Assembly: GCA_017449065.1 (NCBI GenBank)
Contig: JAFSKF010000009.1
Span: 1 to 64,000, forward strand
Reading direction: 5' to 3'
Length of the DNA: 64,000 nucleotides
DNA from: Bacteroidales bacterium
GTDB lineage: Bacteria; Bacteroidota; Bacteroidia; Bacteroidales; UBA3663
A program made the translations under genes and the position numbers. Below the pieces are notes generated by a model, which saw only the letters and a list, made by a program, of their open reading frames with translations, had not been told where the DNA came from and did not search any database. Of this stretch, positions 28,144 through 40,093 are shown piece by piece (within the stretch, counting starts at the first letter, position 1; the number at the start of each line of letters is the position of its first letter).

Positions 28144-29541
28144 TTATGCTTTTTCTGTATTTGATTGAATATATGCGGAAGGATTCTCGTTTATCTTTCT
28201 CAGTTCCTCTTTTCTCCATTTTTCAATGGCTGTTTGAAGAAGTTCGGCTTGGACTTTGGCTATTTTTTCCATCAACAGATTATTGGCTTGTACTTCTGCT
28301 TCCAACTTCTTTTTATTCTTTTGGGTAGATATCTGAACTTCTGTATTAACAACATCATTGATGTCCGATTGTTTCTTTTCCGATAATACACGCACTTTAT
28401 GTGATTCAGCTGCCAAATAATCATCATATGGCCCAAATGTGAGCATCATTTTAAAAAGTGTCGGAATAACTTCTATTGAAATAAATAATAATGTAATAAA
28501 AAGCCTTGCAAAAAACAAAGTCAGATTTTCTGAAGGAGATGTAATTTTGTTTAATGCATTTATTTGAGCACTAAAACCAGTCAGCGCTTTCTGAGTTTCA
28601 TCTCCTGTTTTATCAATTTCATCAATCTTGTTCTCAACTACCTTTAATCTTCTATTATATTCTTCTATTTCTTTTTGAAGGCTGGCTTTTCTTTGTTTGA
28701 TATATTCTACATTATCTTTATTCTGCTGTTTTTCTTCCGCACGCAGATTATGAAGGTCACTCTGTAATCTTTCGACTTGGCTTTCTAACTGCTTAGCTGC
28801 TGGTCCATAGCCCCGAGTTTTTGTCGCTCCAGTTCCGTTTACTTCATAATATAACCTAAGTTCTGCGGCATTGAGTTCTTTTTCTTTATCTGCTACTCTA
28901 TCAGATATGCTATTATTTTTTCCAGCTCGCAAATCATTTATTTGATTATTTCTTGTTGCAATCTGGTCTTCTATGTCTTTGCGTTGTTGATAGAGAAAAT
29001 CATTAGCATTTCTAATTTCATCTCCAACCTTACTTTGATCAATTACTAACTGTGCTTTGATTTTATCCTGAAATATTCTTATTTCTATAGGTGTAGAGAT
29101 GACAATTCCCAAAAAGATTGCAAGAATTATTCGAGGGAGTCCGCCCCAAAATTCTGGCCTGCTAATTGTGTGCTTTCCATCAGAATACATAGTATTCACC
29201 ATAAACCTATCAAGATTAAATATCATTAATCCCCAGATAAGTGCAAATCCTATTGGTACGAATAATGGTGCTTCTTGGAAAACGAATGATATAGCATATC
29301 CTCCCGATAGTGCTGCCATAATTGCGGTAAAGAGTATTGTACCCCCAGTTCCTGCATACTTTGCATAATCAGAAGGACACTGTCTTAAAACTCTTCGGTT
29401 TACTCCAGCGCATATCCACAAGAATTCATTGATCCATCCACCCCATTTCACCTCTGGGTCTTTGGTCGTCAACGATTCTTCATATTCTGTTAATAACTTA
29501 TTTTCTACTACTTCCTGTATTTTTGAATCTTTTTCTTCCAT
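28144..29541 (-). CDS. DUF4407 membrane protein with long coiled coil
   Basis: A 465-residue protein. TM helices lie at about 66-86, 92-110 and 137-156, then a long coiled coil (about 160-330), a fourth TM at about 341-362 and a cytoplasmic helical tail. The segments KYAGTGGTILFTAIMAALSG and MIFNLDRFMV fit the DUF4407 pattern. Its start lies 44 nt inside the preceding zinc-finger gene, an unusually long overlap that ties their translation. In this operon it may anchor or transduce the kinase/phosphatase signal at the inner membrane; that role is inference. Confidence 0.85.
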   Translation of the reverse strand: MEEKDSKIQEVVENKLLTEYEESLTTKDPEVKWGGWINEFLWICAGVNRRVLRQCPSDYAKYAGTGGTILFTAIMAALSGGYAISFVFQEAPLFVPIGFALIWGLMIFNLDRFMVNTMYSDGKHTISRPEFWGGLPRIILAIFLGIVISTPIEIRIFQDKIKAQLVIDQSKVGDEIRNANDFLYQQRKDIEDQIATRNNQINDLRAGKNNSISDRVADKEKELNAAELRLYYEVNGTGATKTRGYGPAAKQLESQVERLQSDLHNLRAEEKQQNKDNVEYIKQRKASLQKEIEEYNRRLKVVENKIDEIDKTGDETQKALTGFSAQINALNKITSPSENLTLFFARLFITLLFISIEVIPTLFKMMLTFGPYDDYLAAESHKVRVLSEKKQSDINDVVNTEVQISTQKNKKKLEAEVQANNLLMEKIAKVQAELLQTAIEKWRKEELRKINENPSAYIQSNTEKA

Positions 29542-30580
29542 TGCTATTTCCTTTTAAATGACTAAATAGTTTTTTGATTGAACTCTTTAAGCTGAAACGT
29601 CGAAGTGGTGGTGAAAGTTCCACATTTAATCCCAGATCCTTGAATGATGGAACCTTGGGAACTTCTGTTTTTACAAATTCTATTGATATATTGGGAAAAA
29701 ATAACGATACATTATATTGTGGCTGTTTTATTGTTATTGACAATTTATTTGCAATATTTGGAGCTGGCACAAATAGCGACTTAACAAGAGGAATTGGCAA
29801 CATTTGGATTTCTACCCTCTTCTCCTTGGTCCCGAATTCATCTTCAGCCGACAAAACATAAGTCATATTCTTTTCTGGTTCTACGACCTTTTTGCCGGAA
29901 GAAGGCTCCTCCTCTTGATCCAGCCAAACCTTTTTGGCATTCTTGACATTCCACGAAAGCAGAACAGGAACAGTCGGAAAGATATAGTTCTTATCAGCAT
30001 TGAACTCTATTTCGCATTCGTCAAAGACACCAATTTGCAATTCTTCTGTAAAGGTGGTTACATCATCCAAAGCGATGTACTCAATAATATAGGATGTAGT
30101 CTCATTGGGACAAACTTCCAATTTTCCAGAAGAAGGAATCTCTTCCCGATTATCGCCTACAATTAAATATACTTTACTTGTTTTTTCAGTTTTCCAAGTT
30201 AACAATGAATTTTCTTTCTTCCCTCTTTTTAATTTTGATTTACTAGAAGAAAATTCTATTGTAGGACGCTCTATGAAGTCCAATTCAAAACTAACCGTTC
30301 TGGTTGTAGTATCCGAATTCGATAAAAAGAAAATCACATCCTGTTCGTCTGGATTCTCTAAGCTATAAGATTCTTTTCCTGTAACGTCTGAAGTTTCTCC
30401 TTTATAACAAAAAGATACTTTATCACAGAACTCCGTTTTCCACCTTAATACAATTGGTTTGCCGCACAGAACCCTATCGTACGAGAAATCAATAATCTTT
30501 GGAGCATGCGTTTCACATACTTCACAAACATCCAAAATATCAGGATTCTCCGTTTCGCAGTTTTTGCATATCCAACTCAT
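29498..30580 (-). CDS. RanBP2-type zinc finger plus Ig-like repeat protein
   Basis: A 360-residue protein. Residues 3-22 fit the RanBP2 zinc-finger consensus exactly (W3, C5, C8, N12, C19, C22). Then come three similar beta-sandwich-like segments of about 85 residues, each with a central Trp (LRWKTEF, LTWKTEK, LSWNVKN) and a YxL/YxI strand near the end, resembling tandem Ig-like domains. A basic Pro-rich tail follows. No signal peptide, so it is cytoplasmic. It is 5 nt from the DUF2971 gene. TerY-P kinases commonly carry a zinc ribbon; here the kinase has none and this separate protein may substitute (inference). Confidence 0.72.
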   Translation of the reverse strand: MSWICKNCETENPDILDVCEVCETHAPKIIDFSYDRVLCGKPIVLRWKTEFCDKVSFCYKGETSDVTGKESYSLENPDEQDVIFFLSNSDTTTRTVSFELDFIERPTIEFSSSKSKLKRGKKENSLLTWKTEKTSKVYLIVGDNREEIPSSGKLEVCPNETTSYIIEYIALDDVTTFTEELQIGVFDECEIEFNADKNYIFPTVPVLLSWNVKNAKKVWLDQEEEPSSGKKVVEPEKNMTYVLSAEDEFGTKEKRVEIQMLPIPLVKSLFVPAPNIANKLSITIKQPQYNVSLFFPNISIEFVKTEVPKVPSFKDLGLNVELSPPLRRFSLKSSIKKLFSHLKGNSNGRKRFKNTGSSRK

Positions 30581-30585
30581 AGGTC

Positions 30586-31350
30586 CTATATGGAAAAAGG
30601 TTCAAACTCAATATTAAATGGACGACATACTTTTGTTTTTCTGACAGGGATACCTAAGTTTCTTGCGACCTCACCAATATAGCAATATCTGTCTTTGAGA
30701 AAATTGTGACCAATAATAATTCCTTTAATTGCACCTTGGGGGATTGGAATTTTGTATCCTCCCGTTTCATATTTAACTTTAGGATTCGCTCGATCTATTA
30801 TATCTTTCCCTGTAATCAACCTCCTTTCACATTCTTTTTCCCATACAATATTTTTATAGGAACATAAATGGGTAAATAGTTTATCCATCGTCTTAAAATC
30901 TTGCAAACAATCCTCAAGTTTTATGGTTTGAATCTTCCCATCATATGCCCTATAATTAAAAGTATAGTTCATATCATCCAAATTGGGACATTCTTCCTTA
31001 TACACAACTTTTTGATAAGATACTCTAGCTGATAATTCATTAGTTATACTTTCAAATGTATCATCCTCAAATTCGACAACAAAACCACTATAATTATCAG
31101 CATATAATGCCCACATAACTTTATTGTCACATTCTTCACAAAAAGAACATGTCCCATAACTTTCCATAGTTTCTTTAGCGTTCGGCACTATTATGGGGTC
31201 AATAAATTTCAAAAATTGAGGAGATTGTATCAAGTCAAATGAAGCATCATAAGGGTCATTTAGTTTTGACACTTTGCAGAAATAAAAATAATTTTCCGAT
31301 AATGCTTCAAAATTATACGATTGAGGCGAATAGTATTTATATACTTTCAT
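30586..31350 (-). CDS. DUF2971-family protein
   Basis: A 254-residue cytoplasmic protein. MKVYKYYSPQSYNFEALSEN at the N-terminus and VMWALYADNYSGFVVEF in the middle match the DUF2971 pattern, and a cysteine cluster CSFCEEC precedes the latter. The C-terminal IPQGAIKGIIIGHNF is also typical. The family has no settled biochemical role but recurs in accessory and defence loci. Gaps of 5 nt on each side place it firmly in the kinase operon. Confidence 0.8.
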   Translation of the reverse strand: MKVYKYYSPQSYNFEALSENYFYFCKVSKLNDPYDASFDLIQSPQFLKFIDPIIVPNAKETMESYGTCSFCEECDNKVMWALYADNYSGFVVEFEDDTFESITNELSARVSYQKVVYKEECPNLDDMNYTFNYRAYDGKIQTIKLEDCLQDFKTMDKLFTHLCSYKNIVWEKECERRLITGKDIIDRANPKVKYETGGYKIPIPQGAIKGIIIGHNFLKDRYCYIGEVARNLGIPVRKTKVCRPFNIEFEPFSI

Positions 31351-31355
31351 ATAAT

Positions 31356-32408
31356 CTATTTTTTATTGATTTTCCATGTTTTACTACGTAATATTGTTGT
31401 TTGAGGAGTATCAATTATTTCATCAGGAATTGTCTCTTTGACAATAAGAGTACCTCGCAATCCTGCCTCTGACGAACAAATTGTTGTAGTAGCACTAAGA
31501 AGATCTTCTCCTTTAAAATTTTTTAATATGTCAAAGACCTCACGAATTGTTGGCCTATTTTCAGGTCGAGAATTTAACATTTTTCTAATTAAGGCGTCTA
31601 ACCCCGATGGAATATGTTTTGCAAATGAAAAAGATTTGCAATTTTCAACACAATTCCAAGTACTACTATACCCGTCTTCAAGTATTGTTTTTTTTCCTGT
31701 AAAGTACTCACACAAAATAATACCCAATGTAAAGATATCGGATTTTAGAGTAAGAATACTACCCGAGATTTCTTCATCTTCATCCATAATATAGGCTGCC
31801 TGTTCTGGAGAATAATACTCTGGTGTTCCAACAAGGCTTTCGCGGTCTGTTGGTGGATTGCCGCTAAAATAGCTATCATCAAAGTCTATCAGTTTTCCCG
31901 AGTAGCCAGAAGGCGTTTTTTTTATAAGAATATTATCAGGCTTTAAATCTCCATGAACAATATTTAGGTCATGTAAAATTCGAATACTATGGCAAACAGA
32001 TTTTGCAATGAGCAGAATCTTTTCAAAAGGCAGACGAGAGATTTCCTCACAGGTAAGCGATGCCGTGTCTATCTTTTCAGTCACTTTATAATAACAAGTA
32101 CCACTACGGAAGAAATCCACCGCAAAAACGAGGTTACCTCCCAAAGAAACTTTTGTTGCAATTTTCTTATTGAGTTCTTTGTGATGCTTTTCAAATACTT
32201 CGCAAGCTTTGCGTCTTTGTTCCTTCACTTTCTCGCTGCCAGGGCTGTCTGGTAAAGGATATTTGGGAGAAAGAAATTCTTTGATAAAATATTCCTTCCC
32301 GCCCTTCTTTGCAAAAGTCACCTTACTCATGCCTCCAGCCACCTCAAAATCTTTTAAGATTGTATAGCCATTGATCACGTTACCTTCAAGCATTGGCATT
32401 GTTGTCAT
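31356..32408 (-). CDS. Ser/Thr protein kinase of a TerY-P-like triad
   Basis: A 350-residue Hanks-type kinase. The VAIK lysine is K43 in YFIKEF, the catalytic loop is HGDLKPDN (D154, K156, N159), and the Mg-binding motif is DFD (D176), followed by GTPEYYSPEQ as the activation/APE segment. The glycine loop is degenerate (EVAGGMSKVTFAK). The C-terminal 60 residues are Thr/Ser rich and may be autophosphorylated; no zinc ribbon or TM helix is present. The start overlaps the PP2C stop by 23 nt with alternative in-frame ATGs at 32399 and 32393. Confidence 0.93.
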   Translation of the reverse strand: MTTMPMLEGNVINGYTILKDFEVAGGMSKVTFAKKGGKEYFIKEFLSPKYPLPDSPGSEKVKEQRRKACEVFEKHHKELNKKIATKVSLGGNLVFAVDFFRSGTCYYKVTEKIDTASLTCEEISRLPFEKILLIAKSVCHSIRILHDLNIVHGDLKPDNILIKKTPSGYSGKLIDFDDSYFSGNPPTDRESLVGTPEYYSPEQAAYIMDEDEEISGSILTLKSDIFTLGIILCEYFTGKKTILEDGYSSTWNCVENCKSFSFAKHIPSGLDALIRKMLNSRPENRPTIREVFDILKNFKGEDLLSATTTICSSEAGLRGTLIVKETIPDEIIDTPQTTILRSKTWKINKK

Positions 32409-33423
32409 CGTTTATAAATTTCAGATACTTCTGCTTGTAACTCTCCCAGCCACTTTTAGCGATTTGTTCGTATTCGCGTTGCATCTTAGTCAGTTTCTGC
32501 TTTTGACTGGTAATATTAGACTCCAAATCTCGAAGTTTGCCAACAACTGAAACAGATTGCAATGCCATAATATTTTTAAACTTTCCAAATGACTCAAAGC
32601 CAATGCCAATCAAAGCCAAGGACGTATCGTCACCTGTCACTTCTTGAATACTCTGCATAAGCAGTTTCTTCCATTCTTCTTCATCGTTAGCTTTTTTCAG
32701 ACACCGTTTAAGCATATCCTCAAAGTGCATTGGCGTGGGGAGATAGCCGAAACAGCCATCTGTTGCACTTATTATTATGACAGGCTCTTTTGAAAGGTCA
32801 ATTTGCTTGTGATTAATTCGGAAATCACGATCCGCACAAATACAATTTGATACAGCAGCATCATTGTGCAAATTCTCCATAGGATCATTATCTTCTTCTA
32901 AATCATCCTTGCTAATCTGGTAGAATCCGTTCCTCGTCCACAAGTAGCAATGTGAGTCACCTGCCCAGTAACTATCAACTTTATAACTATTATCTTTTTC
33001 GTAAAGAGTTACAATTGCCATAGTTGTTGGATATTCACGAATAAGCCTGCTTCGTAACGAGGATATTGCCTTTGGGGCGAACTTCTCTTTTTCTTCAGAT
33101 AATGTTCTTTTTATAATTGCTTTCATTTCTTCTATATCGATATCCTCTGCGGGAAGACAGTTCTGAAGGAATTTATCCATGGAAGAACAAACTATTCTAG
33201 AAGAGACATAGGCCTGGGTATGTCCGACGCCCAAAGAGGATGATTCGCAAATCGTTGCACCGGCTCCACCCATTCCATCAAACACTCCAACTGCAAAAGA
33301 GTCTCTTTTTTGAATGAGAAGAGGTGGGGCATCTTCCCCATGCCTCGCCTCCTTCTCAATCATAAAAGAAACGGATATGACATCTATGCTTTTCACGTCC
33401 TCAGCTTTAAACAGATTTGACAA
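32386..33423 (-). CDS. PP2C-type protein phosphatase of the triad
   Basis: A 345-residue metal-dependent phosphatase with FDGMGG (D49), WAGDS (D156), SATDG (D222) and GDDTS (D265, D266), so the two-metal centre is complete. After residue 290 comes a coiled-coil tail (about 296-325). The likely start is TTG at 33423, 17 nt inside the vWA gene; no ATG is better placed. It would reverse phosphorylation by the adjacent kinase, with the vWA protein as partner. Confidence 0.92.
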   Translation of the reverse strand: MSNLFKAEDVKSIDVISVSFMIEKEARHGEDAPPLLIQKRDSFAVGVFDGMGGAGATICESSSLGVGHTQAYVSSRIVCSSMDKFLQNCLPAEDIDIEEMKAIIKRTLSEEKEKFAPKAISSLRSRLIREYPTTMAIVTLYEKDNSYKVDSYWAGDSHCYLWTRNGFYQISKDDLEEDNDPMENLHNDAAVSNCICADRDFRINHKQIDLSKEPVIIISATDGCFGYLPTPMHFEDMLKRCLKKANDEEEWKKLLMQSIQEVTGDDTSLALIGIGFESFGKFKNIMALQSVSVVGKLRDLESNITSQKQKLTKMQREYEQIAKSGWESYKQKYLKFINDDNNANA

Positions 33424-34090
33424 TAGCGGACATTATTGTTTCATAATCGACCTCAGTCAATCCCATACCTGATCTTGCAGGATGGTGAATAGTATTATCC
33501 CAATTCAGTCCAATTTCCGTCCAAGCACTAGCATCCGGTGCAAATACGATTAACCTCTCCGCATTGAAATCCATTCTTCCACCTTGTCTAAGATTCCACC
33601 AATCTGTTAGTTCGTTAAAATCACTTGGCATATCCTGAGGATAAAAGTCATTCATACACCTATCTAATCTCAAAGGATGAGTTGAAGCATCTGACCAGAC
33701 AACCACGACATGCCTTCTTTTATCACCACCTGTAGTCCAATCAGAATTAATAGCCATTGCCAAAGCTTCCAAACCATTCTCTGGCTCATCACCCCCACCA
33801 GTCGGCTGAAGTCCGTTTACAAAACTCTTGAATTCTGATTCTTGGGCTGGAATATTGATGAATCCAGAATCTTGAATAGCATTTGCGCCATCTGCATAAA
33901 AATCACGGAATCCTATAACTCGAATGCGAAGCTCAGAGATTTCTTTACCCTTAGCATCACATCTTGCTTTCAAATCTGGATAAAACTTTAATGCGTTAGT
34001 TTTTACTGTATCCAACAAATCACCCATACTACCTGTACAATCTATACACATTACAATGTCAACGTTGTACTTTAATCCTTGTCCTGGCAT
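33407..34090 (-). CDS. TerY-like von Willebrand factor A protein
   Basis: A 227-residue stand-alone vWA domain. The MIDAS motif is D17-C-T19-G-S21 in IVMCIDCTGSM, with the further T/D residues in PTGGGDEPENG and the VVVVWSDAS strand. It matches the TerY-type vWA found with PP2C and kinase. It is the first gene of the operon, about 340 nt downstream of a strong promoter, with a hairpin only 17 nt before its start codon. The metal ion and protein partner are unknown. Confidence 0.9.
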   Translation of the reverse strand: MPGQGLKYNVDIVMCIDCTGSMGDLLDTVKTNALKFYPDLKARCDAKGKEISELRIRVIGFRDFYADGANAIQDSGFINIPAQESEFKSFVNGLQPTGGGDEPENGLEALAMAINSDWTTGGDKRRHVVVVWSDASTHPLRLDRCMNDFYPQDMPSDFNELTDWWNLRQGGRMDFNAERLIVFAPDASAWTEIGLNWDNTIHHPARSGMGLTEVDYETIMSAIVKSV

Positions 34091-34106: not shown

Positions 34107-34128
34107 TCTGCTTGGCTACCACAGCAGA
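34107..34128 (-). promoter_or_regulatory. Hairpin close to the vWA start codon
   Basis: TCTGCT pairs with AGCAGA and an inner TGG with CCA around a 3-nt loop, giving about nine pairs with one bulge. On the transcript it ends about 17 nt before the vWA ATG, close enough to affect ribosome access. Confidence 0.55.
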
Positions 34129-34142
34129 TGTTTTCGTTTAAG

Positions 34143-34264
34143 GTTTATATATACAAACAAAGAACGTGGAGCCTATCTGTCACTCGCTCCACGCTCTAAA
34201 GGCTCTCGCATTGCCCAGTTTGTCGAAACGAGCAACGTGAAAGCCCCACGAAAATGTATATATC
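34143..34264 (-). ncRNA. Candidate structured leader RNA of the vWA-PP2C-kinase operon
   Basis: A segment of about 120 nt in the 5' leader is closed by ATATATAC (34147-34154) pairing with GTATATAT (34256-34263). Inside are a strong hairpin at 34161-34197 (8 perfect pairs CGTGGAGC/GCTCCACG, extended by AGA/TCT over a G-U), a two-part hairpin at 34209-34237 (CATTGC/GCAACG and GTTT/AAAC) and a small one at 34236-34250. On the transcript the strong hairpin is followed by a U-rich stretch, so it could act as an attenuator. No known riboswitch class is recognised. Confidence 0.55.
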
Positions 34265-34435
34265 AAATCCGTATCTTCTGCCTACCTTTATGAGTAGAGA
34301 CAAGATAAGGAAATGTATAAGCATTCCAAGGGACGTTCCCATTGCTTTGTTTTTGACAAACTGTTCGAACGTGCGAGATTCTTAGAGCGTCAAAGCCAAA
34401 GCGTCCAGAAAACGCCTATGTCTGTATGTTCGCCG

Positions 34436-34467
34436 CAAAAATATGATATTTTTTCGAATCGAACAAA
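34436..34467 (-). promoter_or_regulatory. Promoter of the vWA-PP2C-kinase operon
   Basis: Minus-strand TTTG, 20 nt, TATTTTTG, exactly the Bacteroidetes consensus. Transcription should start near 34429, giving a leader of about 340 nt before the vWA start. Confidence 0.75.
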
Positions 34468-34509: not shown

Positions 34510-34632
34510 AAATAAAGTCGTGAAGGATGCAATGCAATCCATCAGACAGGTTGCAAAGATACACTATTAATCTGAGAAACGGAAGGCACATCTGCTTCCA
34601 TTGTACGAAGTCGTGGGGTTATTGTATGAAAT
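34510..34632. repeat. Dispersed repeat copy A
   Basis: This 123-nt copy differs from copy B (36825-36947) at only about three positions. It includes GTTGCAAAGATACACTA, which carries a minus-strand -7 element TATCTTTG. Copies A and B flank the DUF4276/AAA gene pair in direct orientation. Confidence 0.92.
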
Positions 34633-34776
34633 ACTTATGATAGATCTATAATTCAATTCTTTCTCTTAATCAATGCCAATATATCATCGAACCTTCTACA
34701 CCAATATCCACGTACTATAAATGACAGAACATTAATACCCCAATAAAGTAGGACGATATGAGTGGAAACAGTTGAT

Positions 34777-35457
34777 TTAGCTATTCCGAACCTTTTCGCA
34801 GAAAGTTTTCAGTTCACGGTCTTTAAATATTAAATCGCTTGGATTCAGATGTGCAATGATACCGGGAGCATGGCGCAACTTGCCATATTTCAAGTCGCGC
34901 ACCTTTCCTGATGCACTCTTTTTCACTTTTTCTTGTGGAGCAAATACCTGTCGCAGAATCACACCCATCAAAAACGATGCTTTCTGCTGCAAGTGCTCAA
35001 TATCCTTGCCTTTGATAGAAGGATGATTGGCCAATGGATAATCTTGCCTGGGTTTGCGTGTCAGATTTTCATCCTCGGCCCATTGCTCTATAGCTTCTGG
35101 TTGTTTCAGGAACCATGCTTCCATCTCCTGAATCCAGAAACTTACGTGATCTGTCTTGTCCTTTGGCATCTTAATTCCATCGTCAGACAGGCTCTTGAAC
35201 CAATCGTTTCTCAACTCCGGCTTACGGTCAAGATCTACATACAGATAGTTTTCCTCATTTCCCGTTGCATTGATGAACTGTTTTGCGGCTTCTTTATAAC
35301 TGGAGCATTTCTTCACTACAATGCTGATGTCATCACGATTTAGTGCCCGTTGCATAAAGCGATTCAGTTCCTCTCGCAGAGCCTCCGAATTATTGTTCGT
35401 TGTGGCATCAACATTTCCATTGATAACACCACCCTCCACATATACATTGACTACCAT
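34777..35457 (-). CDS. DUF4276-like TOPRIM-type protein paired with an ATPase
   Basis: A 226-residue protein. The N-terminal strand VYVEGG (E8), the later YLYVDLD (D75, D77) and FWIQEMEAWFL (E111, E113) fit the DUF4276 pattern, a TOPRIM-like nuclease family often encoded beside SMC/AAA ATPases. It overlaps the ATPase stop by 7 nt. By analogy with ATPase-TOPRIM defence pairs such as OLD and PARIS it may be the effector nuclease; activity is not shown. Confidence 0.72.
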   Translation of the reverse strand: MVVNVYVEGGVINGNVDATTNNNSEALREELNRFMQRALNRDDISIVVKKCSSYKEAAKQFINATGNEENYLYVDLDRKPELRNDWFKSLSDDGIKMPKDKTDHVSFWIQEMEAWFLKQPEAIEQWAEDENLTRKPRQDYPLANHPSIKGKDIEHLQQKASFLMGVILRQVFAPQEKVKKSASGKVRDLKYGKLRHAPGIIAHLNPSDLIFKDRELKTFCEKVRNS

Positions 35458-36653
35458 CTTTTACCGCCAATCTCGCCGTTCAACCATAACTGACCTGGGA
35501 GCAGATCTCCCTCGCGATTTTCAAAATCATCTTCGCTGTAACGCGTGATTTGCGTTTCGTTCATGCCGTTCTTTTCGAATACCAATATATCATCGAGTTC
35601 AAAGGCATTCAACAAAAGAGCCGAATGGGTTGCTACAATAATCTGTGATGACTTTGCGGCACTCTTCATCATCTTTGCTACAGAACGAATCATATCCGGA
35701 TGCAGACACGATTCAGGTTCATCTATGTCAATAAGTGCGCCTCTATTTGGATTATGAAAGATGCTCAACAAAAGCAAATACTTCAATGTGCCATCTGAGA
35801 TATGGAGCGCATCTATGGCATGCGACAGATTTTTCTCACGAAGGGAGAGATACAATCTGCTGCCAAAAACATTATAACCGATTCCTGTAAAATTCGGATT
35901 TATATCGCTCAAACATTCTATTATTTTCTCATACTGGAACGTATAGTTGTTATTCAGGTTGCTCAACAACTGACTTAGGTTCTCTCCTGTGCTTATCAAT
36001 CGTTTAATATCATTGGCTTCAGCAGGCTGACGTACTTTGTCAAAATTAAACTTTGAATATCCGGCAATTGCATTGATGGCCTCTCTTACAACAAAAGACG
36101 GCAGATATCTCTGTGGATCGGTAATCTGCCTGAGCACCAATTCCTGCGCAGACAGCATACCGCTTTCATATTTTTCTACTTCTATACCGCTTTTGGTGCG
36201 AACCGAAATTTGGCCGATGCCATTACGGAATTCAAGATAACTGAATGTTTTTTTCTTTCCACTGCTATCTTCTGAATAAAGCGTTTCACAAAGGGAGTAA
36301 CTTGTGCCATCGCCAATAGGGAATACCGTTATCTTGTAATAAACATCTTTCTTAAAGGGAGAGGTGGGAACACGTTTCCTCAAAACATCGGCATCGAAAA
36401 CGTAGGTTATACTAAAACAATCCGGCTTTTGTTCACCGCACGCATTAACAATTGCATTGTATGTGCCCCACTGCCGAAACAATGCCGACAAACCGCCACC
36501 CGCAATGCCCTCATAAAGCATGGTGATGGCATTCAGAAAGGAAGTCTTGCCACTTCCATTAACACCTACAAGGATATTAACCCCTGTATTCAATTGAATT
36601 GTGTGCTCTCCTTTAAAGGAAAAGAAGTCACGGATAATTAGTTCTTTTATCAT
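35451..36653 (-). CDS. AAA/ABC-type ATPase (OLD/RecF-like)
   Basis: A 400-residue cytoplasmic ATPase with Walker A GVNGSGKTSF (K36), a signature-like HISDGTLKYLLLL, Walker B GALIDIDEPESCLHP and the H-loop ATHS. The N-terminal IKELIIRDFFSFKGEHTI is typical of AAA_15/AAA_21 proteins that sense DNA or phage components. It forms an overlapping two-gene unit with the DUF4276 protein and has its own -7 element upstream. The flanking direct repeats suggest that the pair is a movable cassette. Confidence 0.88.
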   Translation of the reverse strand: MIKELIIRDFFSFKGEHTIQLNTGVNILVGVNGSGKTSFLNAITMLYEGIAGGGLSALFRQWGTYNAIVNACGEQKPDCFSITYVFDADVLRKRVPTSPFKKDVYYKITVFPIGDGTSYSLCETLYSEDSSGKKKTFSYLEFRNGIGQISVRTKSGIEVEKYESGMLSAQELVLRQITDPQRYLPSFVVREAINAIAGYSKFNFDKVRQPAEANDIKRLISTGENLSQLLSNLNNNYTFQYEKIIECLSDINPNFTGIGYNVFGSRLYLSLREKNLSHAIDALHISDGTLKYLLLLSIFHNPNRGALIDIDEPESCLHPDMIRSVAKMMKSAAKSSQIIVATHSALLLNAFELDDILVFEKNGMNETQITRYSEDDFENREGDLLPGQLWLNGEIGGKRW

Positions 36654-36824: not shown

Positions 36825-37000
36825 AAATAAAGTCGTGAAGGATGCAATGCAATCCATCAGACAGGTTGCAAAGATACACTATTTATCTGAGAAACGGAAG
36901 GCACATCTGCTCCCATTGTACGAAGTCGTGGGTTTATTGTATGAAATGCCGAACAGAAATCTTACAAATTTTCCAAAATCATACAAATTCAGGAAGAAGC
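36825..37000. repeat. Dispersed repeat copy B (longest copy)
   Basis: The first 123 nt match copy A; the segment from 36854 to about 37000 matches copy C at 39950-40093, including ATCTTACAAATTTTCCAAAA. Together A, B and C define a unit of about 175 nt, of which B is the most complete. On the plus strand the copies keep an open frame with residues LYEVVGLLYEMP, but without a consistent start. Confidence 0.9.
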
Positions 37001-39939: not shown

Positions 39940-39949
39940 ATATACTCTA

Positions 39950-40093
39950 TCATACAGGTTGCAAAGATACACTATTTATTTGAGAAACGGAAAGAATATC
40001 TGCTCCCATTGTACGAAGTTGTGGGTTTATTGTACGAAATGCCAGACAGAAATCTTACAAATTTTCCAAAATCATACAAATTCGGGAAGAAGC
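39950..40093. repeat. Dispersed repeat copy C
   Basis: About 144 nt matching 36854-37000 of copy B with scattered substitutions; the left 30 nt of B are absent. A minus-strand TATCTTTG (39962-39969) lies 23 nt upstream of the lipoprotein start, so the repeat may supply its promoter. Confidence 0.88.

Follow-up and report, generated by a model that had tools for sequence, protein, structure and literature searches.

A large structured leader RNA before a vWA–PP2C–kinase operon belongs to a multi-copy Bacteroidales family and is probably a portable, transcription-attenuating switch

The window (the whole stretch of 64,000 nucleotides of the Bacteroidales contig JAFSKF010000009.1 that was analysed) carries on its minus strand a run of genes that begins with a vWA protein, a PP2C phosphatase and a Ser/Thr protein kinase, and which is preceded by a long structured leader (Table 1). 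The −33/−7 pair at the head of this leader is a perfect match to the Bacteroidota promoter consensus. It lies about 345 nt before the ATG of the vWA gene at 34090, all on the same strand, in agreement with an earlier note on this DNA, which had placed a perfect promoter about 340 nt before the first start codon. The leader RNA (34439-34088) folds with −123.7 kcal/mol, compared with −88.3 (sd 4.6) for 100 shuffled sequences, none of which folds as well (z = −7.7). Together with the covariation described below, this rules out chance folding.

Table 1. Features of the leader and of the operon behind it, in window positions
Feature	Position	Strand	Detail and basis
Promoter	34436..34467	−	−33 TTTG 34464-34467; 20-nt spacer; −7 TATTTTTG 34436-34443
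Structured leader RNA family member, full model length	34150..34429	−	R1 and R2 covariance models
P1 5' strand AUACAGACA, closing stem	34419..34427	−	9 bp with one G-U; partner UGUUUGUAU 34151-34159
P2 hairpin AGGCG / CGCUUU (family AAAGGCG..CGCUUU)	34398..34417	−	97.2% of cells paired; two-sided change in 5 of 6 pairs
P3 5' strand CGCUCUAA	34382..34389	−	Partner 34192-34200; 98.4% paired; two-sided changes in 6 of 6 pairs
Small GAA/UUC stem, loop holding P4 5' strand UCUCGCA 34372-34378	34367..34381	−	Flank covariation
P5 5' strand CAGUUUGUC, variable helix	34355..34363	−	Partner GACAAACUG 34216-34224; sequence; by eye in alignments, uncounted
P6 5' strand GCAAUG	34340..34345	−	Partner CGUUGC 34232-34237; 96.5% paired
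Strand B UCGUGGGGC	34243..34251	−	Complementary to A 34330-34336 and C 34166-34174; A:B 83.5% paired; B:C permutation test
Pseudoknot strand CUCGUU	34227..34232	−	Pairs with GCGAG 34183-34187 in P9 loop; permutation test, 174 copies
GGGC..GCC element with P4 3' strand UGCGAGA 34204-34210	34201..34216	−	P4 98.4% paired; two-sided change in 6 of 7 pairs
P3 3' strand UUUAGAGCG	34192..34200	−	Covariation and sequence
P9 terminator-like hairpin, D GUGGAGC 34186-34192 and C GCUCCAC 34166-34172	34166..34192	−	93.4% paired; two-sided change in 5 of 5 pairs
U-rich tract, including P1 3' strand UGUUUGUAU 34151-34159	34151..34165	−	Sequence; U-tract count over copies
vWA protein, first gene after the leader	33407..34090	−	VWA_4, 1.2e-8
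PP2C phosphatase	32386..33423	−	PP2C_2, 3.3e-8
Ser/Thr protein kinase	31356..32408	−	Pkinase, 2e-25
DUF2971 protein	30586..31350	−	DUF2971, 1.2e-8
360-aa protein	29498..30580	−	Without Pfam match at 0.01
DUF4407 protein, last annotated gene of the run	28144..29541	−	DUF4407, 1.3e-70

On its upstream side, the leader promoter adjoins a 148-nt repeat, which is present at 34538-34685, 36853-37000 and 39946-40093 (the outer copies are 76% and 93% identical to the middle one) and carries, on the minus strand, a −7-like TATCTTTGC box. Part of it (131 bases) matches the own genome at four places, which all lie at 26.9-40.1 kb of contig C3; the repeat may be a local promoter-bearing repeat. The stretch 34777-36653, just upstream of the leader, encodes a pair of proteins that resembles known two-gene defence modules: one is an AAA_21 ATPase, of the putative AbiEii toxin type by its description, and the other a DUF4276-like protein (27.5 bits, under the Pfam cut-off of 30.2).

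The leader is one member of a multi-copy family of structured RNAs, roughly 230-300 nt long, of the gut bacteria that make up the Bacteroidales. A plain DNA search of 60 genomes (its own and relatives) detects similar stretches not only in the own genome but also in a species of that genus and in a different family within the order; outside the window locus, the three best matches are 72-73% identical. Two covariance models were used. R1 was built from 11 copies including that of the window, which it scores at 243.5 bits (E 6.5e-51), while R2, built without the window copy from 27 copies (24 from public genome contigs and 3 from viral contigs), gives the window leader 212 bits (E 3.2e-52). Over whole copies, the closest R2 sequence is 85% identical to an R1 copy, and none is as near as that to the 12 copies fetched from the own genome. 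Both models find a single copy in the 64 kb of the window, so that the uniqueness claimed for this leader stands as far as this RNA family is concerned; the next copy on the same contig is about 38.5 kb further.

The genome counts obtained with R1 and R2 are lower bounds, given the strict filters that were applied. R1 detects 13 copies in the own genome at E ≤4.3e-6 (one of them of 196 nt) and a fourteenth at 0.03; 14 of the 15 genomes of the genus contain between 1 and 14 matches and one contains none. Within the order, at least 23 of 149 genomes match R1 at 0.01, and at least 3 of 198 genomes of a sample of the phylum do so at 0.001, namely the own genome and two others, the latter weakly. 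With R2, matches at 1e-5 are found in at least 68 of 295 genomes of the order, and at least 43 of 177 genera. A DNA pattern derived from the conserved core of the family matched at least 120 stretches of genome contigs. Among the matches listed, nearly all contigs are from Bacteroidales by title, and mostly metagenome-assembled; the isolates listed are Segatella copri, Bacteroides caecigallinarum, Parabacteroides distasonis, Paraprevotella xylaniphila and Prevotella ihumii, and the bins include Phocaeicola, Alloprevotella, Barnesiella, Odoribacter, Alistipes, Duncaniella and Muribaculaceae. Four listed bins with Firmicutes-type names (L131, L167, L224 and L226) are perhaps misbinned. The core pattern also occurs in four stretches of viral contigs, three of which match the covariance model; the fourth (L230) is the one among 28 pattern-fetched loci that gave no model match.

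Shorter copies, most of them about 180 nt long, keep the order of the elements and are found in further families of Bacteroidales; the phylum sample lists one from a different order of the class (G256) and another from a different class (G196, locus L232). By reading, these short copies are without strand D, and a start codon follows within about 130 nt in four of them (L052, L054, L058 and L060). Nine of 11 loci with short or weak copies match R1 and nine match R2 (E 1.8e-7 to 1.1e-13); L060 and L232 gave no match with R1 or R2 when the loci were scanned again, though they had been listed in the genome searches. The short copies are probably relatives of the family. Five of them (L051, L052, L056, L057 and L060) are near contig ends, which suggests that these lie in or beside repeated sequence.

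Read from 5' to 3', the family consists of a promoter, a leader of typically about 50 nt, P1, P2, a rod made of P3, P4, P5 and P6, whose variable tip contains strands A and B, then P9, the U-tract, a spacer and the gene. P1 encloses P2, the rod and P9, and the U-tract overlaps its 3' strand. The −7 box of the window is about 6 nt 5' of the conserved part, compared with a family median of 52 nt, which means that the window copy is without the usual 5' extension. What the earlier note had described as a row of separate hairpins is one interlocked structure, whose conserved part is 34150-34429. The closing stem that it had seen is present as P1, with 9 bp (one of them G-U) rather than 8, and the strong hairpin and the U-rich run that it had placed one after the other are both there (P9 and the U-rich tract of Table 1); this run is, in addition, part of the closing stem. 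A small hairpin just before the start codon, which had also been claimed, is visible by eye in the sequence at 34108-34127; no counterpart of it was seen in other copies.

The covariation analysis that the earlier note had proposed as a check yields a clear answer: homologous leaders exist, and their hairpins covary. In an alignment of 59 copies, 95.7% of the cells are paired, 29 of 33 pairs show two-sided change, two-sided cells number 314 as against 85 in shuffled alignments, and the covariation score is 0.466, compared with 0.175 after shuffling and 0.028-0.108 when the structure is slid. Similar values are obtained with a further 96 copies, of which one duplicates a member of the 59, namely 96.3% of cells paired, 439 two-sided cells as against 131 shuffled, and a score of 0.392 versus 0.171. 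Both of these alignments were fitted to the covariance model. The structure-blind MAFFT alignment (A6) of 24 copies outside R1 gives 94.6% paired cells, 97 two-sided cells as against 32 shuffled, and a score of 0.369 versus 0.173; there, pairs with two-sided change are mildly above the shuffles (6/500), whereas further pair types are not (296/500). The copies of alignments A3 and A4 were fetched via the DNA pattern from the family core, so that conservation of the core in them is not independent evidence.

Among individual helices, P3 shows up to six pair types per position. In 118 copies matched by a regular expression, the flanks of P4 are GAA..UUC (57), AAA..UUU (49), AAA..UUC (8) or GAA..UUU (4), and this covariation suggests that P4 may be a loop-loop (kissing) contact of two small stems, as an alternative to a continuous rod. 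The P1 strands (164 copies) pair better with their own partners (energy −7.48) than with permuted ones (−6.52, sd 0.18; 0 of 2000 permutations as low), a result that is significant only as a mean, since the median rank of the own partner is 54.5 of 164. The junction strand after P6, mostly CUCGUU (with variants that have UUAUC, UCAUU or CCGUU there), pairs with the loop of P9. Over 174 copies the matched energy of this pseudoknot is −9.59 and the permuted one −8.34 (sd 0.10; 0/5000 as low); 162 of 174 matched pairs contain a perfect 6-mer, as do 2793 of 3480 permuted pairs, permuted partners often pairing too because one sequence dominates. The permutations made for P1, for the pseudoknot and for the B:C and Z:B pairings described below ignore the relatedness of the copies.

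In every alignment, G-U cells outnumber A-C cells by 2- to 5-fold (127:25, 204:43, 47:16 and 44:20), which implies that the selected molecule is the RNA of the gene-sense strand. The helices and the pseudoknot are thus under selection for pairing on that strand, and the compensating changes fall on the strand that is transcribed, as expected of a cis-regulatory leader. The same bias disfavours a repeat acting as DNA. An element of that sort, mobile or recombining, for instance through a folded single-strand site, would account for a copy number that varies from none to 14 within the genus, for the copies that look cut at one end (L023, L030 and L133) and for the 3' flanks that are alike by eye in L025/L026 and L022/L023. 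It would not require a sense-strand RNA, nor a set orientation with respect to genes, and it fits poorly with the divergence of the copies: the nearest own-genome copy is 72% identical to that of the window, just as the nearest copy from another family is, and only 6 pairs among 182 copies are at least 90% identical. We regard this explanation as highly improbable. L025 and L026 are two copies of one genome (4616-4914 and 5050-5263, respectively) with alike downstream flanks; one precedes a methyltransferase-type restriction operon and the other, by eye, a remnant of that operon.

The position of the family is that of a leader. Context was assessed in 156 of 181 distinct copies (those with more than 700 nt downstream and an ORF of at least 60 aa, the first ATG being taken as the start): the next ORF has the same direction in 147 of them, at a median distance of 62 nt, and 117 are at 0-200 nt. 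Position and orientation before genes are therefore set. Of the 164 copies with more than 200 nt upstream, 134 have the −7 box, TAnnTTTG, in the 130 nt that precede them, compared with 7.3% of 3280 control stretches taken at random from the same loci, coding sequence included; both promoter boxes are found in 64 of the 164 copies and 1.8% of the controls. At the other end, P9 is followed by a U-tract (5 or more U in 8 positions) in 159 of 164 copies, as against 15 of 163 in a control spacer, although part of this conservation may be structural since the tract also takes part in P1. Of the five exceptions, three (L029, L121 and L231) belong to the nine copies in this set with an oppositely directed next ORF. 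Two of these, L029 in a genome (4571-4849) and L231 in a viral contig (10040-10316), end at a similar, convergent HTH-like ORF and have lost the U-tract.

It may be asked whether transcription usually ends at P9, so that the product is a free RNA of about 280 nt that acts in trans (the earlier note had considered a released small RNA), its position being a by-product. The frequent −7 box, the terminator-like end and the 9 of 156 copies whose next ORF is not co-directional would agree with it. The short and similar distance to a gene that is nearly always co-directional, the 13 diverged copies in one genome and the loss of the U-tract in three of the nine copies that face an opposite ORF all argue against it, and the set position before genes points to a main role in cis rather than to a released small RNA. 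We consider the latter very unlikely.

A terminator-like stem followed by a U-tract before a gene is, as a sequence feature, what an attenuator would contain. Folded alone, the window stretch 34148-34200 gives −22.6 kcal/mol (z = −5.4), and the P9 stretches of three other copies are no stabler than shuffles (z = −0.1, −0.8 and −1.3). The U-tract of the window is interrupted (UUCUUUGUUU), and the loop of P9, about 16-20 nt, is large for a terminator; a simple terminator scan does not list P9 in the window nor in L035, because this loop exceeds the 8-nt limit of the scan.

A further observation concerns the 3' arm of P9 (strand C), directly 5' of the U-tract, which covaries with two partners, the local strand D and the distant strand B, itself nearly constant (CGUGGG). 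In 154 copies, the value for B:C is −15.1, compared with −13.5 (sd 0.13) for permuted pairs (0/5000 as low), and 136 of them have at least 8 contiguous complementary bases, G-U counted. Within groups of like B, two groups give 0/3000 each and the third (42 copies) is weak, at 40/3000. Compensated examples are CGUGAG with CUCACG, and CGCGGG with CCCGCG. The D:C and B:C helices are mutually exclusive, as alternative helices of attenuators are, with the reservation that B:C is weak in one of the three groups. A strand Z of the 5' leader also covaries with B in the 108 copies where B is recognisable and a −7 box is present 30-90 nt upstream (−15.7 versus −14.4, sd 0.22; 0/2000), with at least 10 contiguous pairs in 24 of them; strand Z is absent from the window copy.

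From these exclusive pairings and from the stem and U-tract, we infer conditional termination at P9. If C were left pairing with D, RNA polymerase would stop some 60 nt short of the gene; transcription would go on if a signal, be it a ligand, a protein or an RNA, changed how B pairs. A B:C helix would abut the U-tract too, so that either pairing could correspond to the ON state. The attenuator that had been suggested from the window sequence thus gains support from the comparison of copies, at the level of sequence. Alternatively, the fold could protect the mRNA or gate the access of ribosomes. Bacteroidota are mostly devoid of Shine-Dalgarno sites, so mRNA leaders may matter in these bacteria, and the 3' end of the element is about 60 nt from the start codon, which is consistent with such translational or stability control; it would leave the U-tract unexplained, and we find it quite unlikely.

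The nature of the genes behind the copies bears on what is being controlled. The 142 first genes (ORFs 400 nt or more away being excluded) form 96 clusters. A Pfam run on 138 of them, cut at 450 aa, returned 131 families, the most frequent of which are BspA-type LRR (7), LRR_8 (5), ResIII (5), LytTR (4) and DEAD (4). The recurrent themes, identified partly by eye, are lipoproteins and surface proteins (BspA-like), restriction or helicase proteins, kinase/PP2C/FHA proteins, LytTR proteins and small HTH-like regulators. PADLOC found no family in more than 4 of the 138 first genes, and returned helicase and methyltransferase models but no single system. Such a mixture of first genes speaks against one metabolic pathway, and against a riboswitch devoted to a single one; metabolite sensing of another kind, which the earlier note had also suggested, may still apply.

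The leader is not tied to the vWA gene either. The two relatives of the vWA protein that were found in 197 other genomes of the order (L253 and L254, 42-43% identity) have no copy in the surrounding DNA at E 10, and no vWA relative was found in viral contigs. The link to the vWA–PP2C–kinase operon that the earlier note had drawn has therefore to be abandoned in favour of a portable leader. In another record (L133), a gene 80% identical to the window vWA gene, with a related kinase in third position, lies behind a copy; there, a deletion apparently extends from P9 into the gene. Three of the own-genome copies precede kinase operons (those of the window, L032 and L069). The copy of L032, the second own-genome copy on the contig of the window, precedes an operon (L032 1-4875) which by eye encodes two Ser/Thr kinases and a zinc-ribbon protein, and resembles that of the window.

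Structured leaders that are usable before unrelated operons do exist: put of HK022, EAR and the targets of LoaP are reportedly leaders of processive antitermination. The put or EAR RNA stays with RNA polymerase, so that terminators are ignored. By analogy, the folded leader described here could remain with the polymerase and render it insensitive to terminators or to Rho in operons that are long, foreign or poorly translated. The unrelated accessory genes (142 in 96 clusters), the high internal conservation and the absence of a metabolic theme would fit this mechanism. Unlike put, EAR and LoaP leaders, the present family has its own 3' stem and U-tract and exclusive pairings, and antitermination alone leaves the 3' stem and U-tract, as well as the two exclusive partners of C, unexplained, which makes it unlikely in our opinion.

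We favour, with moderate confidence, the view that the leader is a cis-acting, transcription-attenuating RNA switch that belongs to a multi-copy Bacteroidales family and is portable between accessory operons. It shares with riboswitches, T-boxes and leader attenuators the 5' leader position, a covarying fold, a terminator-like stem with a U-tract and exclusive helices. It differs from known attenuators in that it has no Rfam class in the sources scanned, its genes have no common pathway, and it is very large and pseudoknotted. At the gathering threshold, Rfam 15 has no match in the window and in 12 loci; permissive scans gave only weak, unrelated matches for the leader and, for 14 loci, nothing beyond weak matches or tRNAs, located away from the copies (20 distinct sources were scanned in all). 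Bacteroidales-1 (RF01693) is also a structured RNA of Bacteroidales, with one match in each of 14 of 21 genomes; in the own genome, the match to RF01693 is weak, below the cut-off, and located elsewhere (G000:C12:43313-43555), where no copy of the family is present, so that the leader is not Bacteroidales-1. Flavo-1 (RF01705) and the other Bacteroidetes motifs reported in 2010 are likewise structured RNAs of Bacteroidota (PMC2864571), and none has an Rfam match at any scanned copy of the leader family. Hits of Flavo-1 are described as lying both sense and antisense to transcribed regions (PMC9723704). As far as our searches reach, no description matching the leader family was found in the literature; the portions consulted of PMC2864571, PMC9723704, PMC7366714, PMC8040213 and PMC11109978 do not describe it. 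DNA similarity was not found in plasmids.

Last, since the same element stands before very different accessory genes, the signal to which a switch of this kind would respond is probably general, unless the effect is on the polymerase itself. It is possible, although we would not call it likely, that the family is a general-purpose switch of Bacteroidales that obeys one common signal (an alarmone, a second messenger or an RNA-binding regulator) and which, copied from operon to operon, commands dozens of unrelated accessory systems. In that case it would serve the accessory genome as a regulatory module that can be transferred, and not as a pathway riboswitch: phage defence, surface proteins, kinase signalling and small regulators would come under one RNA-level command, as parts of one regulon. 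What selection has kept before about 100 unrelated gene clusters is a large interlocked RNA that matches no Rfam model in the sources scanned. If it is a switch, finding its signal would give access to gene control in a phylum about whose RNA regulation little is known.
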